Position numbers and translations under genes: made by a program. DNA of 58,581 bases from a virus. Shown here piece after piece: positions 5,480-43,424 of the stretch. The stretch is from positions 1 through 58,581 of the IMG/VR virus record IMGVR_UViG_3300046170_000288. One strand, 5' to 3'. Below the pieces are notes generated by a model that saw only the letters and a program-made list of their open reading frames with translations, had not been told where the DNA came from and ran no database searches. Within the stretch, counting starts at the first letter, position 1; the number at the start of each line of letters is the position of its first letter.

Positions 5480-6699
5480 TATACTGTTCCTCCGTTTTCT
5501 AATTTTTTCATAGTGTCATACATAATCTGAGCACCTTTATTTACACTACCACCACCTGCTGCTCTTACAGCATCAGCAGTAAATACGAATTCGTTGTTTG
5601 ATAACATTGCAGGAATGTCATCTGCCTTTTCTTTTACACCAACTGGAGGAATAAATCCACCTGTTTCTCTTAAATCTAGCTCTTTTACACCCTTAGGATT
5701 GATATTAATATCTAGTCCTTCAATCCCTGAAGCCTGTTCCACTAACTCATCAGATCCATAAGCACGGTTTATTCTACCACCATAAGCCATTTTAGGTTTT
5801 TCAAGTGATTCAGGTGCATCTATATACTTCATCATTTCTTCTCTAATCATTGTTAATACTTCACTCTCTTTCATACCATAGTTTTCAGCTATCTCTGTTA
5901 CTTTTTTAGGTAAATATTGTGTTCTAAAAAATTGATAACCTTTCATTGTACCATCTTCAGGTTCTCCGATTCCAGATCGACCTGGGCCAAGCATAATTTT
6001 TGCTACTTCTGATACTTCTTTTTGAGGAGCATCGTTAGGTATTGGATTAGAAGTTGTTGTATCTATTTGTAATCCTCTTGGAAGATCTTCCATATTATTA
6101 CCTGTGTATGTTGGATCAGGTGTTCCATCATCATAACCCATTCTACCACCACCAGCTTTCATGTTTCTATTTAAAAAATTTTCTTTTTTAGTATCATAAG
6201 CTGCCATTGCATTTGGATCATTTGTATCTACACTTGGTAAATTTAAATTATCATAATATTGTTCTAAGTATTGTCTTAAAGCTTCTGGGTCACCTTTTAA
6301 AGCTTGTATCTGTTGAGGTTCCATATCACCAAATAATTTTCCTGCTGTTGCTCCAGCTACAAGTTTACCTACATTACTTCCTAAAAAATTTTTAGCTCCA
6401 GATAATAAAGATCCAAATTGGCTTTGAGCAAAATCTCCTCCTACTTTTCTAAGTAAAGGATTAAAACTACCCTTACCAAAAAAAGAACCAAGTCCACTTC
6501 CACCACCTAAACCATATAAAGATCCAGCAGTTAATGCTAACTTACCAATATCAGATTTAAGAAAACTTCCTATTCCTTTAGTAATACCCTTAAAAGCTTT
6601 TTTAAGGCCACCTAAAAATGCTTTTTCTCTAGGTGCAACTTGCATAATTCCACCTCCCATTCTTAACTGTCTTGGCATTTGTGATCTTGATATTGTCAT
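5479..6699 (-). CDS. Gly-rich virion protein with membrane-active N-terminus
   Basis: 406 residues. Residues about 28-125 are Gly/Leu/Phe/Lys-rich with weakly amphipathic segments, as in proteins that insert into membranes during DNA entry. Two short Gly-Arg motifs occur (GGGRMGYDDG near 182 and AYGGRINRAYG near 307). The C-terminus carries a block typical of marine phage virion proteins, DDIPAMLSNNEFVFTADAVR, followed by a Gly-rich turn and a short helix. It is one gene of the terminal structural cluster. Function is inferred only. Confidence 0.65.
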   Translation of the reverse strand: MTISRSQMPRQLRMGGGIMQVAPREKAFLGGLKKAFKGITKGIGSFLKSDIGKLALTAGSLYGLGGGSGLGSFFGKGSFNPLLRKVGGDFAQSQFGSLLSGAKNFLGSNVGKLVAGATAGKLFGDMEPQQIQALKGDPEALRQYLEQYYDNLNLPSVDTNDPNAMAAYDTKKENFLNRNMKAGGGRMGYDDGTPDPTYTGNNMEDLPRGLQIDTTTSNPIPNDAPQKEVSEVAKIMLGPGRSGIGEPEDGTMKGYQFFRTQYLPKKVTEIAENYGMKESEVLTMIREEMMKYIDAPESLEKPKMAYGGRINRAYGSDELVEQASGIEGLDININPKGVKELDLRETGGFIPPVGVKEKADDIPAMLSNNEFVFTADAVRAAGGGSVNKGAQIMYDTMKKLENGGTV

Positions 6700-6727
6700 A
6701 ATTTATTATATCCAATAATCCCTTGTT

Positions 6728-6973
6728 TTACAACTTAGAATCACCGCCTATCGGCAATGCTTCTACGGTTACTTTAACGTCTCTTTTAATATCATCAGCT
6801 ACAGTATCTGTACCTGGATCTTGTACATCATTCATAGCTTCTGCGTCTGAATTATATTCTTGACCTGTTTTAATGTTTGTTAGCGTAACCTCTGTTTTTG
6901 GTGTTATAATCTTAACCGGTTTACCATTTATTACTTCTACTCTATATGATGCTTCTGTTTCTACAAATGACAT
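6728..6973 (-). CDS. Small conserved virion-operon protein
   Basis: 81 residues, acidic, with beta-strand-like alternation in the first half (YRVEVINGKPVKIITPKTEV) and an acidic linker after it. It starts one base after the stop of the gene at 6975-7304. No domain recognised; probably a minor structural or assembly protein. Confidence 0.6.
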   Translation of the reverse strand: MSFVETEASYRVEVINGKPVKIITPKTEVTLTNIKTGQEYNSDAEAMNDVQDPGTDTVADDIKRDVKVTVEALPIGGDSKL

Positions 6974-40267: not shown

Positions 40268-40341
40268 TTAATTATGTTTTTTATTTGTTTATGTTCAGAT
40301 AAAAAATTAGATTTGGGGTGTATCATAACCATCACCCCAAG

Positions 40342-40800
40342 TTGACACTCTAAACAAGTGGGATGATTAGCACTCTGGAAGAGAGCCATTGAGTGCTACT
40401 GATCCCTGATCCAATGGTAGTAGCATCTAGACCATGCTTGACTGGAGATTGGATCTGGGATCAGTCATTATTGACTGTGGAGATAAACACTATAACACGG
40501 TGTGCGCTAGGATTCCCGTATGTCATGCAATGGGGCGTCATACCACCCGCGTAGCATAGTGACTGATCATTATTTGCTGGACCATTGCTATGCTTGTCTA
40601 GTCGACTTGCAAGCATTACTGGTACAGCCCACTGAAAGGTGATGGTCCTGCTAATAATAGTATCAGTAAGAGTACACCAGCGTCCAAATCTTGCCTCTGG
40701 CATTTCCCTGTACGTTAGCGATGATGGGCAACCTAGCAATGTGTGTAACACCATGGTGCGCCGAGTTCCCTGATCAGGATGGCGCGCTGGTATATGATTG
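40342..40800. other. Structured, GC-richer stretch without a convincing gene
   Basis: This gap holds many inverted repeats: TAGCACTC/GAGTGCTA (40368-40398); an 18-base arm ACTGATCCC..ATCCAAT with its match (40398-40415 and 40448-40465, one mismatch); CAGTCA/TGACTG (40462-40477), which competes with the previous stem; AGCATAG/CTATGCT and ATGCTTG/CAAGCAT (around 40553-40616); and CCTGATCAGG near 40770. Base composition is clearly richer in G and C than the surroundings. A frame exists at 40461-40754 (minus) but looks accidental. Could be a structured RNA, origin or recombination site. Confidence 0.4.
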
Positions 40801-40807
40801 AAGGATC

Positions 40808-40835
40808 AAGCGGCAAGCTCCAAGCAGCAAGCGCT
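40808..40835 (+). repeat. AAGCNNC heptamer repeat, cluster 1 (4 units)
   Basis: Four end-to-end 7-base units AAGCGGC, AAGCTCC, AAGCAGC, AAGCGCT. The last base runs into the -35 box of the promoter at 40835-40863. Confidence 0.7.
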
Positions 40836-40863
40836 TGACAGCTGGGTCAGGATAGTATAGGAT
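40835..40863 (+). promoter_or_regulatory. Promoter TTGACA-N17-TAGGAT
   Basis: TTGACA (40835-40840), 17 bases, TAGGAT (40858-40863), directly before the small gene at 40883. Same -10 hexamer as the promoter at 38387. Confidence 0.5.
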
Positions 40864-40882
40864 ACAATTGAAAGGAATAATT

Positions 40883-41014
40883 ATGAAAATAAAAATATAT
40901 GAAGCTGGTGAACAGCTAAACAGAGTTGCTAACGCCCTGGAAGAAATTATCCGGATGGTGAAGGAAGATCAAGAGAGATCTAGAAAGTACATGGAAGAGA
41001 GGAAGGATGACTGA
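40883..41014 (+). CDS. Small helical protein (43 residues)
   Basis: MKIKIYEAGEQLNRVANALE, EIIRMVKEDQERSRKYMEER, KDD. One amphipathic helix. AAAGGAATAATT precedes the ATG. Overlaps the next gene by 8 bases. First gene of the rightward island. Confidence 0.5.
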   Translation: MKIKIYEAGEQLNRVANALEEIIRMVKEDQERSRKYMEERKDD

Positions 41015-41159
41015 TAAAGAAAAAAAACTTGCAGCTCACCTGGCAGCTATGTGCTGTCAGGCTGACGAAGACTGTCCAGCCGAATACAGGACTGAGCATT
41101 TTAGATCCACGATGGATGATGCCTATGACTACCTGAAAGAGATTGGATACTTGAAATGA
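41007..41159 (+). CDS. Small helical protein (50 residues)
   Basis: MTDKEKKLAAHLAAMCCQAD, EDCPAEYRTEHFRSTMDDAY, DYLKEIGYLK. Helical with three Cys. ATG 41007 overlaps the stop of the previous gene; its own stop overlaps the next ATG (ATGA). Coupled translation expected. Function unknown. Confidence 0.5.
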   Translation: MTDKEKKLAAHLAAMCCQADEDCPAEYRTEHFRSTMDDAYDYLKEIGYLK

Positions 41160-41359
41160 GAATTAAAAATAATGATTTGTTGCCGTGGTTCACTGATGAC
41201 CACGGCACGCTGCCGCAAGGTTACCTGGACCATTGCCAAGAATTTTTTAATAGCCTGAAGCGCCAAGCCTCAAGCGGCAAGCTTCAAGCGTCAAGCCTCA
41301 AAAAACAATTGCATAAACCAGGGACCCGTGTTAAAAATAGATTCAACAGAAAGATATAA
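41156..41359 (+). CDS. Small protein containing AAGCNNC-encoded repeat
   Basis: 67 residues: MRIKNNDLLPWFTDDHGTLP, QGYLDHCQEFFNSLKRQASS, GKLQASSLKKQLHKPGTRVK. The QASSGKLQASS part is the translation of the heptamer cluster at 41258-41299. The N-terminal 35 residues look like real protein; the rest is repeat-driven and basic. Function unknown. Confidence 0.5.
   Translation: MRIKNNDLLPWFTDDHGTLPQGYLDHCQEFFNSLKRQASSGKLQASSLKKQLHKPGTRVKNRFNRKI
41258..41299 (+). repeat. AAGCNNC heptamer repeat, cluster 2 (6 units)
   Basis: Six units in a row: AAGCGCC, AAGCCTC, AAGCGGC, AAGCTTC, AAGCGTC, AAGCCTC. Lies inside the 3' part of the 41156 gene. Confidence 0.7.
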
Positions 41360-41361
41360 TT

Positions 41362-41965
41362 ATGAAAATAAAAGAAGCATTAAAAATAACAGACTCATTT
41401 ACAAGAACAAGCAAGATGCCTGGCCTGAGCTACAGCCTGCCAGCATGGGCATGTCAAACTGGTTCGAAGCTTAGACTAGTTAAAACTTCACCGTGTTACG
41501 GCTGTTACGCCTTGAAGGGTAACTATACCAGGTATCCAGCAATCAAAGCAGCTCAGTATAGAAGACTGGACGCAATCAATCACCCGCTATGGGTCGAGGC
41601 TATGTCTACAAAAATACGTGGCCAAAAATGGTTTAGATGGCATGACGCCGGCGATGTACAGAGCAGCGAGCATATGCAAAAAATTATAGAAGTGTGTAAG
41701 CTCACACCAAACACCAAACACTGGCTGCCAACGCAAGAGCGGCAATACCTGCCAGCACCTGAAGAGGTTCCGGAAAATTTAATTATAAGATTATCAAGAT
41801 CAAAAGTCGATGGACCAGCAGGGCAATGCCTGGACCCATGACTCAGGCGTCACGACTCAAGAAGGTGAGCGGACTTGTCCAGCCCCGGATCAGGGCGGCG
41901 CTTGTAAAGATTGTCGAGCATGCTGGAATAAAGATATTAAATCTGTTATATACGGTAAACATTAA
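41362..41965 (+). CDS. Cys-rich conserved phage protein (one extra base)
   Basis: Starts MKIKEALKITDSFTRTSKMP. Chain: GLSYSLPAWACQTGSKLRLV, KTSPCYGCYALKGNYTRYPA, FRWHDAGDVQSSEHMQKIIE, then LIIRLSRSKVDGPAG. An extra base near 41822 stops the frame; repaired it goes on NAWTHDSGVTTQEGERTCPA, GGACKDCRACWNKDIKSVIY, ending at TAA 41963-41965. The span of 604 bases is 3n+1. At least eight Cys with a SPCYGC start and a CKDCRAC end suggest metal or Fe-S binding; it resembles radical-SAM-like phage proteins, but this is not proven. Confidence 0.6.
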
Positions 41966-42132
41966 TGCACGTATTCAAACATCCTAAATATTACGAAGAG
42001 ATGCGCCAGCGCGCGAAAAAATTTCAGAGAGAAGAGAAGCTCAAGCTGCAAGCGTCAAGCACCAAGCCACAAGCTTCAAGCGACAAGCCTCAAGCACCAA
42101 GCGATTCAAAGATCTCGGAGCAGGATTCATAA
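41965..42132 (+). CDS. Small protein ending in heptamer-encoded tail
   Basis: 55 residues: MHVFKHPKYYEEMRQRAKKF, QREEKLKLQASSTKPQASSD, KPQAPSDSKISEQDS. The ATG overlaps the previous stop (TAATG). The first 24 residues are a basic helix; the QASSTKPQASSDKPQAPSD tail is the translation of the repeat. It converges on and overlaps the nuclease gene at 42090. Confidence 0.45.
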   Translation: MHVFKHPKYYEEMRQRAKKFQREEKLKLQASSTKPQASSDKPQAPSDSKISEQDS

Positions 42133-42177
42133 CCCGAGCACCAAGCCTCAAGCTTCAAGCCACAAGCAGCAAGCTCT
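42037..42177 (+). repeat. AAGCNNC heptamer repeat, clusters 3 and 4
   Basis: About nine units from 42043 to 42105 (AAGCTGC, AAGCGTC, AAGCACC, AAGCCAC, AAGCTTC, AAGCGAC, AAGCCTC and so on), preceded by a six-base AAGCTC, then five more from 42143 to 42177. They overlap the 3' ends of both converging genes, at 41965-42132 and 42090-42458. Confidence 0.7.
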
Positions 42178-42458
42178 CTTATATCTTTTCCCTCATAAAG
42201 TTTTGGAAGCATGGAACAGGCATCAAGAACTAAGATAAAAGTATTGCGTGGATGTTTCACGTGGAACGCAATTTGGTGTGGAGAAAATGTGATCTTGTTT
42301 GTTTTTGTATATTTCAGTTCAACAGTGAAAAAGACGCCGTTATTATTATAACCCAATAGATCGGGAGTACCAGGAACGCTAAGATTTTCAATCCTAATCC
42401 AGGATATTTGAGTAATATTTTTCTTAACATTTCCATAAAATTTAGTCTCCGGTTTCAC
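42090..42458 (-). CDS. VRR-NUC/PD-(D/E)XK nuclease
   Basis: 122 residues: MKPETKFYGNVKKNITQISW, then SVPGTPDLLGYNNNGVFFTV, ELKYTKTNKITFSPHQIAFH. The GTPDLLGY...VELKY pair gives the D and ExK of a PD-(D/E)XK site, and SPHQxAFH follows as in VRR-NUC-type phage nucleases, often Holliday-junction or flap cutting. The last ~30 residues (ELAACGLKLEAWCSGYESC) are encoded by the reverse of the heptamer repeats and may be added. Confidence 0.65.
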   Translation of the reverse strand: MKPETKFYGNVKKNITQISWIRIENLSVPGTPDLLGYNNNGVFFTVELKYTKTNKITFSPHQIAFHVKHPRNTFILVLDACSMLPKLYEGKDIRELAACGLKLEAWCSGYESCSEIFESLGA

Positions 42459-42747: not shown

Positions 42748-42933
42748 ATGAAAAAAGAAAAATGGGATGGTAGATCAAGACCTTCTGATGATTTGTATAG
42801 ACAAGAATGGAATAGAATATTTAATCCAGTAGCAAAAGAAGTAAGAACTCCACAATATAAATCACAAACAGTAAAACCCAAAAAGGGAAAAGGAAGTTTT
42901 AAGAGAGGACAATGGGATTACCAAAGAAATTAA
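42748..42933 (+). CDS. Small basic protein upstream of terminase small subunit
   Basis: Start chosen at ATG 42748 (MKKEKWDGRSRPSDDLYRQE); a GTG at 42730 is possible but less likely because it lies inside the promoter region. 61 residues, basic: NPVAKEVRTPQYKSQTVKPK and a Lys/Arg end. It overlaps the terminase gene by 22 bases, so the two are translated together. Confidence 0.55.
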   Translation: MKKEKWDGRSRPSDDLYRQEWNRIFNPVAKEVRTPQYKSQTVKPKKGKGSFKRGQWDYQRN

Positions 42934-43424
42934 CTGAACAACAAATTAAATTTGCCAATCTACTAATATCTGAACAAGGTAGAATGACAGCCACAGCTTG
43001 TGCTATTGAAGCAGGTTATGCAAAAGACTCAGCTAGACAGGCTGCAAGTAAATTACAGAATCCAAAATTATTTCCATTGGTGGTCCAGTATATTGGTGAG
43101 TTAAGAGAAGAGTGGCAAAAGCAATACGAAGTCACATTCGGCAATCACATATCAGAATTAGGTAAACTTAGAGATGAGGCTAGAGATAAGAAAGCTTGGT
43201 CAGCTGCAGTCAACGCTGAAGTAGCTAGAGGTAAAGCTGCAGGTTTATATATTGAACAGAAGATTATCCGTACTGGTAAATTAGAAGACTTATCGACAGA
43301 AGAATTAGAATCACGGATGAAACAAATAATTGACGACTATTCTCCGATTCTAGAGGGAGTTGAATTCGAAGAATTAAAAGAAAAAGTGAAAGAATCACCA
43401 AAGAAGCAAAAAGAATCAAACTAA
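42912..43424 (+). CDS. terS: Terminase small subunit
   Basis: 170 residues: MGLPKKLTEQQIKFANLLIS, EQGRMTATACAIEAGYAKDS, ARQAASKLQNPKLFPLVVQY. This is the Terminase_2-type DNA-binding helix-turn-helix (LTEQQxxFxxxxx...A..AGY.....R..ASKLL). A helical oligomerisation region follows (WSAAVNAEVARGKAAGLYIE, KIIRTGKLEDLSTEELES). It recognises the packaging site and regulates the large subunit. Unusually it is on the opposite strand from terL and ~5 kb away. Ribosome site GAGAGGA precedes the start. Confidence 0.8.
   Translation: MGLPKKLTEQQIKFANLLISEQGRMTATACAIEAGYAKDSARQAASKLQNPKLFPLVVQYIGELREEWQKQYEVTFGNHISELGKLRDEARDKKAWSAAVNAEVARGKAAGLYIEQKIIRTGKLEDLSTEELESRMKQIIDDYSPILEGVEFEELKEKVKESPKKQKESN

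Follow-up and report, generated by a model that had tools for sequence, protein, structure and literature searches.

Several bacterial replicons carry short direct repeats with a 7-base period. In the Inc18 plasmid pSM19035, the operator-parS sites of the omega/ParB system are built from 5'-WATCACW-3' heptads, contiguous and non-palindromic, which form several blocks per replicon, overlap or abut promoters, and keep a fixed core with freer edges (PMC9499535). Marine Beggiatoaceae and Cyanobacteria carry identical TAACTGA heptamers genome-wide, mostly just 5' of start codons, and these gene-boundary repeats have been proposed as regulator-binding sites (PMC4679880). The GGGNATC heptamers of Xanthomonas and Nostoc have one variable base and are mostly intergenic, G-rich quadruplex formers scattered over the bacterial genomes (PMC4692102). 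In text searches of the open-licence literature, neither CAAGC repeats nor any repeats in pelagiphages turned up as described, and repeats of this kind go unmentioned in the pelagiphage genome paper.

Here we describe arrays of a degenerate heptad, CAAGCNN, in a viral sequence, IMG/VR record IMGVR_UViG_3300046170_000288 (58,581 nt, hereafter the window). A sequence-only reading had reported about 25 AAGCNNC units in four blocks, all in one orientation and in phase within each block, and this description held up closely. Its block positions are right to within 1–2 bases (Table 1), all units lie on the plus strand with register kept inside each block, and we counted 21 perfect AAGCNNC units plus 4–5 imperfect end units. 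AAGC and the last C are fixed, as it said; CAAGC followed by NN is the better frame for the unit. Its placements were also correct: a TTGACA promoter directly follows block 1, the C-terminal end of an ORF contains block 2, and a rightward ORF and a leftward nuclease-like ORF have their ends within the stretch covered by blocks 3 and 4.

The arrays are not a product of base composition. The window contains 19 CAAGC-NN-CAAGC steps, against a mean of 0.055 per shuffle in 200 dinucleotide-preserving shuffles. Runs of three units number 13, all on the plus strand, and no shuffle produced one; such runs are thus far from equally common in shuffled sequence. Nor do relatives lack them entirely, as arrays are present in close relatives. 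Within the window the arrays are confined to one island, whose G+C content is 0.45 vs 0.34 for the whole record and whose skew is opposite, almost all genes outside the island being on the other strand.

Table 1. Features of the array island and its neighbour, in window coordinates.
Feature	Position	Strand	Details
Promoter P0	40239–40267	+	TTGACA, 17 nt, TATATA; start of non-coding region; identical sequence in HTVC027P
Non-coding region, probably structured RNA	40275–40800	+	Ends at A1; presumed extent; covarying long stem 40397–40469; Rfam RF02976 at 40672–40792
Array 1 (A1)	40807–40834	+	CAAGCGG CAAGCTC CAAGCAG CAAGCGC, then immediately the -35 box of P1; same layout in HTVC027P
Promoter P1	40835–40863	+	TTGACA, 17 nt, TAGGAT
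Three overlapping small ORFs	40883–41014, 41007–41159, 41156–41359 (span 40883–41359)	+	Last ORF traverses A2 and ends beside gp88
Array 2 (A2)	41258–41299	+	Six perfect AAGCNNC units within the 3' end of ORF 41156–41359
gp88-family gene (PF17338)	41362–41965	+	Frameshifted: frame 1 41362–41841, continues in another frame within 41810–41965
Small ORF MHVFKHPKYY...	41965–42132	+	C-terminal half encoded by A3
Array 3 (A3)	42037–42105	+	Eight perfect units plus imperfect end units
Converging nuclease-like gene	42090–42458	-	PHROG DNA helicase / Holliday junction resolvase / endonuclease families
Array 4 (A4)	42142–42176	+	CAAGCCT CAAGCTT CAAGCCA CAAGCAG CAAGCTC; reversed, it forms the C-terminus of the converging gene
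Terminase small subunit (TerS) gene	42912–43424	+	Island neighbour

The window is an HTVC027P-like pelagiphage. Its closest cultured phage, Pelagibacter phage HTVC027P, shares 72% DNA identity over 86% of the island and has arrays at matching positions, with none elsewhere in the first 50 kb scanned of its 57.6 kb. HTVC027P is of the HTVC023P type, infects SAR11 strain HTCC1062 and is described as lytic (PMC12753301). No CAAGC arrays occur in the regions examined of HTVC023P, 023Pt_psg01 and the gammaproteobacterial phage DSL-LC04, so the arrays mark only part of the lineage. Different short repeats occur in two of these phages: 023Pt_psg01 has AAGC/GAGC runs with a 4-base period where relatives have A3/A4 (L240:3695-3776), and DSL-LC04 has a degenerate 7-bp TGGGCCG-like repeat shortly 5' of the terminase large-subunit gene (L323:13248-13303).

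A scan of metagenomic viral contigs for five-unit runs gave at least 120 stretches. Among the matches listed, one or more genes of the locus found in this lineage are present in 119 of 120; the exception, L044, is a satellite of uniform units. So that the repeat pattern itself played no part in the choice, we also gathered 80 loci by the gp88 protein alone. Upstream arrays were present in 48 of the 50 with enough sequence and downstream arrays in 71 of 74, and none of the 80 loci had a reversed array or an array inside gp88. Locus order is constant: non-coding region, A1, P1, small ORFs, A2, P2 (in most), gp88, the small MHVFKHPKYY ORF, A3/A4, the converging nuclease-like gene, two small genes and TerS. 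Among the matches listed for the 120 array loci, the MHVFKHPKYY ORF has homologues in 51, the nuclease-like gene is found in 107 and TerS in 104. In HTVC027P the converging nuclease-like gene is present at L239 about 6560-6850 on the minus strand and is unannotated; the record instead annotates an ORF, gp32, across the arrays.

The gp88 product matches PF17338 at 101.9 bits (Pfam gathering threshold 24.4), and the gene is intact in all 76 full-length relatives checked. In the window record it is broken at about 41810–41841, by either an assembly error or a real mutation. Its predicted fold is a confident model (pLDDT 91.7) whose best match among solved structures, the radical-SAM enzyme viperin, is weak (E 0.05), and we therefore claim no function for gp88. 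In L119:7176-7556, L072:3158-3505, L049:632-958 and L027:461-808, a different protein family (C-E-Q-L-R-R-M ... VAGGGPxIWV) sits between the arrays, which makes the island an exchangeable gene slot. The arrays stay where other genes stand in for gp88 (these four loci and L094).

Upstream of A1 lies what is probably a structured RNA. Stem modules of the form CTGATCCCTG...CTGGGATCAG occur there in the window, L003, L008, L010, L040 and others, at 1–3 per locus and 94 in 69 loci. Their inner bases vary yet pair, with all nine inner pairs formed in 56 of 94 and many compensatory changes; the window copy folds with a z of -4.5. The modules resemble interchangeable stem cassettes belonging to a pelagiphage RNA not yet described. 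Just 5' of A1, the window matches RF02976 (Flavobacterium-1 RNA) at 103.6 bits against a gathering threshold of 58.9, and the family occupies the same place in L105:2251-2372, L077:3473-3594 and L239:5190-5310. Since these are SAR11 phages, the family's name probably misstates its carrier.

Within the arrays, selection acts on the nucleotide motif of the core. In 1,435 units flanked by perfect units, drawn from 132 non-redundant loci, information content at core positions 1–5 is 1.75, 1.83, 1.83, 1.94 and 1.78 bits; the spacer has 0.01 bits at its first position and 0.04 at its second. The two middle bases do vary, as observed earlier, and each is almost unconstrained, but their combinations are not random (TT and AA over-used, TA under-used; chi-square 217, 9 d.f.). 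Substitutes for A at core positions 2 and 3 are nearly all G (37 of 37 and 31 of 33), a tolerance that appears recognition-like from the sequences. In about 50 independent pairs of relatives with gp88 identity of at least 80%, change per site was 0.092 in the core, 0.36 in the spacers, 0.24 at gp88 third codon positions and 0.30 in other flanking DNA.

A protein-coding cause can be rejected. Core conservation in A1, which has roughly two thirds of its units outside any predicted ORF, equals that in the coding array A2, and coding units spread about equally over all three reading frames; selection therefore acts on the nucleotide motif rather than on a protein repeat. The 7-residue protein repeat described from the sequence does exist, as a by-product of arrays that occur in all three frames and in non-coding DNA.

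Spacer diversity likewise argues against the arrays being an ordinary slippage satellite, or a protein-level repeat (QASSxKx) without nucleotide function, which we consider a very remote prospect. Heptamer satellites are common in bacteria (PMC4692102), and some influence of codon phase is visible: spacers three units apart, which are 21 bp apart and in the same codon phase, are identical more often than expected (107 vs 57), a codon effect on the spacers only. Adjacent spacers, however, are identical in 86 of 1,798 steps vs 134 expected under within-array permutation, less alike than chance and hence contrary to recent slippage. Fresh tandem growth would give the reverse, and the idea of a mobile repeat growing at gene ends accordingly does not fit. 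Long viral arrays have four different spacers among the first four in 149 of 213 cases, whereas bacterial CAAGCNN runs do so in 0 of 125 and are uniform in 101 of 125. The satellite reading also predicts equal mutation rates in core and spacer, contradicted by the rates above. On these three lines of evidence we reject a slippage satellite. Mixed spacers do occur in a minority of bacterial CAAGCNN runs (L160, L182, L184, L188 and L209, in gammaproteobacterial and MAG contigs).

What, then, does the core serve? We scored promoters as consensus matches of at least 10/12 within 20 nt of an array end. Such a promoter follows 71% of A1 blocks and 63% of A2 blocks; the figure for A3/A4 is 0.7%, and for positions drawn at random in gp88 it is 0%. 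The commonest gap between the last CAAGC and TTGACA is 0 bp, both at A1 (28 cases) and at A2 (43 cases). Few arrays (4–6%) have a promoter pointing leftward from their left end, and A3/A4 essentially lack an adjacent promoter in either direction. P2 is missing in about 30% of loci, the window included, and A2 is kept there. In about ten of these P2-less loci, again including the window, the upstream ORF extends past the intact array into a tail, KPGxRVKNRFNRK[IV], beside the gp88 start.

The genes behind these promoters are expressed at an unusual time. RNA sequencing of HTVC027P placed gp33 and gp34 in a cluster of their own that peaks at 6–9 h, apart from early, middle and late genes (PMC12753301). 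The authors give no function for gp33 or for any early gene (PMC12753301). gp33 is the gp88 homologue, the gene behind P2, and gp34 is the small ORF behind P1/A1; the arrays may be the cause of this timing.

We favour, tentatively and at somewhat less than even probability, the reading that the arrays are a cis-acting, multi-site DNA array for a cooperative, sequence-specific protein that would control the gp88 operon. By analogy, a fixed pentamer with a free dinucleotide spacer at 7-bp pitch is what cooperatively bound protein units would be expected to leave. Such units would occupy the 5-bp CAAGC cores every 7 bp along the DNA. At A1 and A2, whose last units meet the -35 box or stop a few bases short of it, the bound protein would touch RNA polymerase, and this contact would determine the timing of gp88 operon expression. 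The A3/A4 blocks, which close the operon, would nucleate the same complex and possibly loop to A1/A2 or block converging transcription. Protein binding, DNA as the target, the cause of the timing and whatever A3/A4 do are all inferred.

The interpretation offered by the sequence-only reading is partly supported overall. Of its options, a protein-binding array has the most support, given the conserved 5-base core, the free 2-base spacers, selection at the nucleotide level and the promoter-abutting positions. In favour of a DNA operator, A2 usually moves with the promoter and gp88 where upstream genes were exchanged. Against it stand the strict same-strand orientation, which a DNA operator does not require, the promoterless A3/A4, the survival of A2 after P2 loss, and the existence of a gp88-bearing relative without arrays, 023Pt_psg01. 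In a Pfam search of 30 small HTVC027P proteins, which small ribbon-helix-helix proteins may escape, we found no ribbon-helix-helix regulator and no other clear repressor.

The main rival reading, which we regard as unlikely though worth weighing, is that the arrays act in RNA. The arrays would then be unstructured, single-stranded sites for an RNA-binding protein or ring that affect termination, stability or read-through, each closing the 3' end of a transcription unit (the non-coding RNA at A1, the small ORFs at A2 and the gp88 operon at A3/A4). All array positions are at 3' ends of units, orientation is sense-only, and A2 outlives P2. Predicted folding of the array RNA is no stronger than that of shuffled sequence (z -1.2 to +0.5), and structured RNA elements lie upstream of the arrays. 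This reading leaves unexplained why A1 and A2 end on a -35 box, and we know of no RNA-binding candidate. A known precedent for such binding is TRAP, which recognizes tandem spaced triplets in RNA. The phage arrays resemble TRAP arrays in having a fixed core and short free spacers in tandem, and differ from their triplet core and 5-nt pitch; no TRAP homologue is known here.

Two specific RNA mechanisms were set aside. A Rho utilization site is disfavoured on two counts. No base is used less often than C at the second spacer position, so YC dimers gain no preference; and conservation peaks at the G of core position 4 (G4), a base that Rho can do without. If the arrays paired with a complementary RNA, the A-to-G substitutions would fit as wobble, but C-to-T is not favoured at core positions 1 or 5; a conserved GCUUG was not seen on inspection of the upstream RNA region. 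In its most far-reaching form, which we hold to be improbable, the RNA reading would make the island an undescribed regulatory code of abundant SAR11 phages: degenerate 5+2 heptad arrays acting in RNA, always in the sense direction, closing every transcription unit of a single island that adjoins a multi-module non-coding RNA, and bound by a new ring- or filament-forming protein that times the gp88 operon.

Another reading is that the arrays are joints for swapping gene cassettes between phages. We think this quite unlikely, although exchange itself is clear. Across 119 loci, gp88 identity gives a rho of -0.01 with that of the adjacent nuclease gene, about 260 bp away, and 0.06 with TerS; nuclease and TerS identities, about 500 bp apart, give 0.55. 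The decoupling of gp88 holds in the pattern-selected and gp88-selected subsets separately, and other genes lie between the arrays in some loci. The recombination signal proposed earlier draws what support it has from pairs with similar nuclease and dissimilar gp88 genes, in which the similarity edge falls within the A3/A4 block in 10 of 11, a block that occupies much of the short interval available to edges. In gp88-similar pairs, by contrast, no edge falls in A3/A4 (0 of 13), and at A2 only 3 of 35 edges lie in the array, most being to its left, which rejects the array as a general recombination joint. Free spacers would also lower homology, and if the arrays served purely as homology joints, conservation of the core alone would go unexplained. 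The exchange data thus indicate that the cassette is exchanged, that A2 mostly goes with gp88 and its promoter, and that the arrays are not a general breakpoint.

A further possibility, to which we assign a small probability, is that the arrays serve packaging (as a pac site) or the initiation of replication, with TerS as one conceivable binder. The locus lies between the TerS and TerL genes in HTVC027P and, as counted above, usually beside TerS, the only recognizable DNA-binding-type protein found nearby. The primase, helicase and PolA genes of HTVC027P are about 8–15 kb from the arrays. A pac site, however, has no need of several scattered blocks (three or four here), let alone of a promoter joined to two of them, and TerS is present without such an array in the examined regions of HTVC023P, 023Pt_psg01 and DSL-LC04.

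Returning to the DNA operator, its interest lies partly in its bearers: HTVC023P-type pelagiphages are widespread phages of SAR11, the ocean's most abundant bacteria. A strongly selected, easily synthesized putative binding site at two oddly timed promoters is also direct bait for a regulator.

Among described systems, the pSM19035 heptads share with the phage arrays contiguous non-palindromic 7-bp direct repeats in several blocks, promoter abutment (here at A1 and A2), and a fixed core. They differ in sequence (CAAGCNN rather than WATCACW), in having two fully free bases, in their strict orientation, and in that A3/A4 are not on a promoter. Like the TAACTGA heptamers they are 7-base direct repeats at gene boundaries; unlike them, they have a degenerate 5+2 unit, occupy one locus, and lie 5' of promoters and at 3' ends. 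They share with GGGNATC the mixture of fixed and variable bases, but CAAGCNN cannot form G-quadruplexes. The CAAGCNN runs of Pseudomonas, Halomonas, Alcanivorax and other bacteria have the same core and period as those of the phages and are mostly uniform satellites on either strand. The phage heptad, with five fixed and two free bases and with adjacent spacers less alike than chance, is a clear case in which selection on the core, rather than slippage, accounts for the array.
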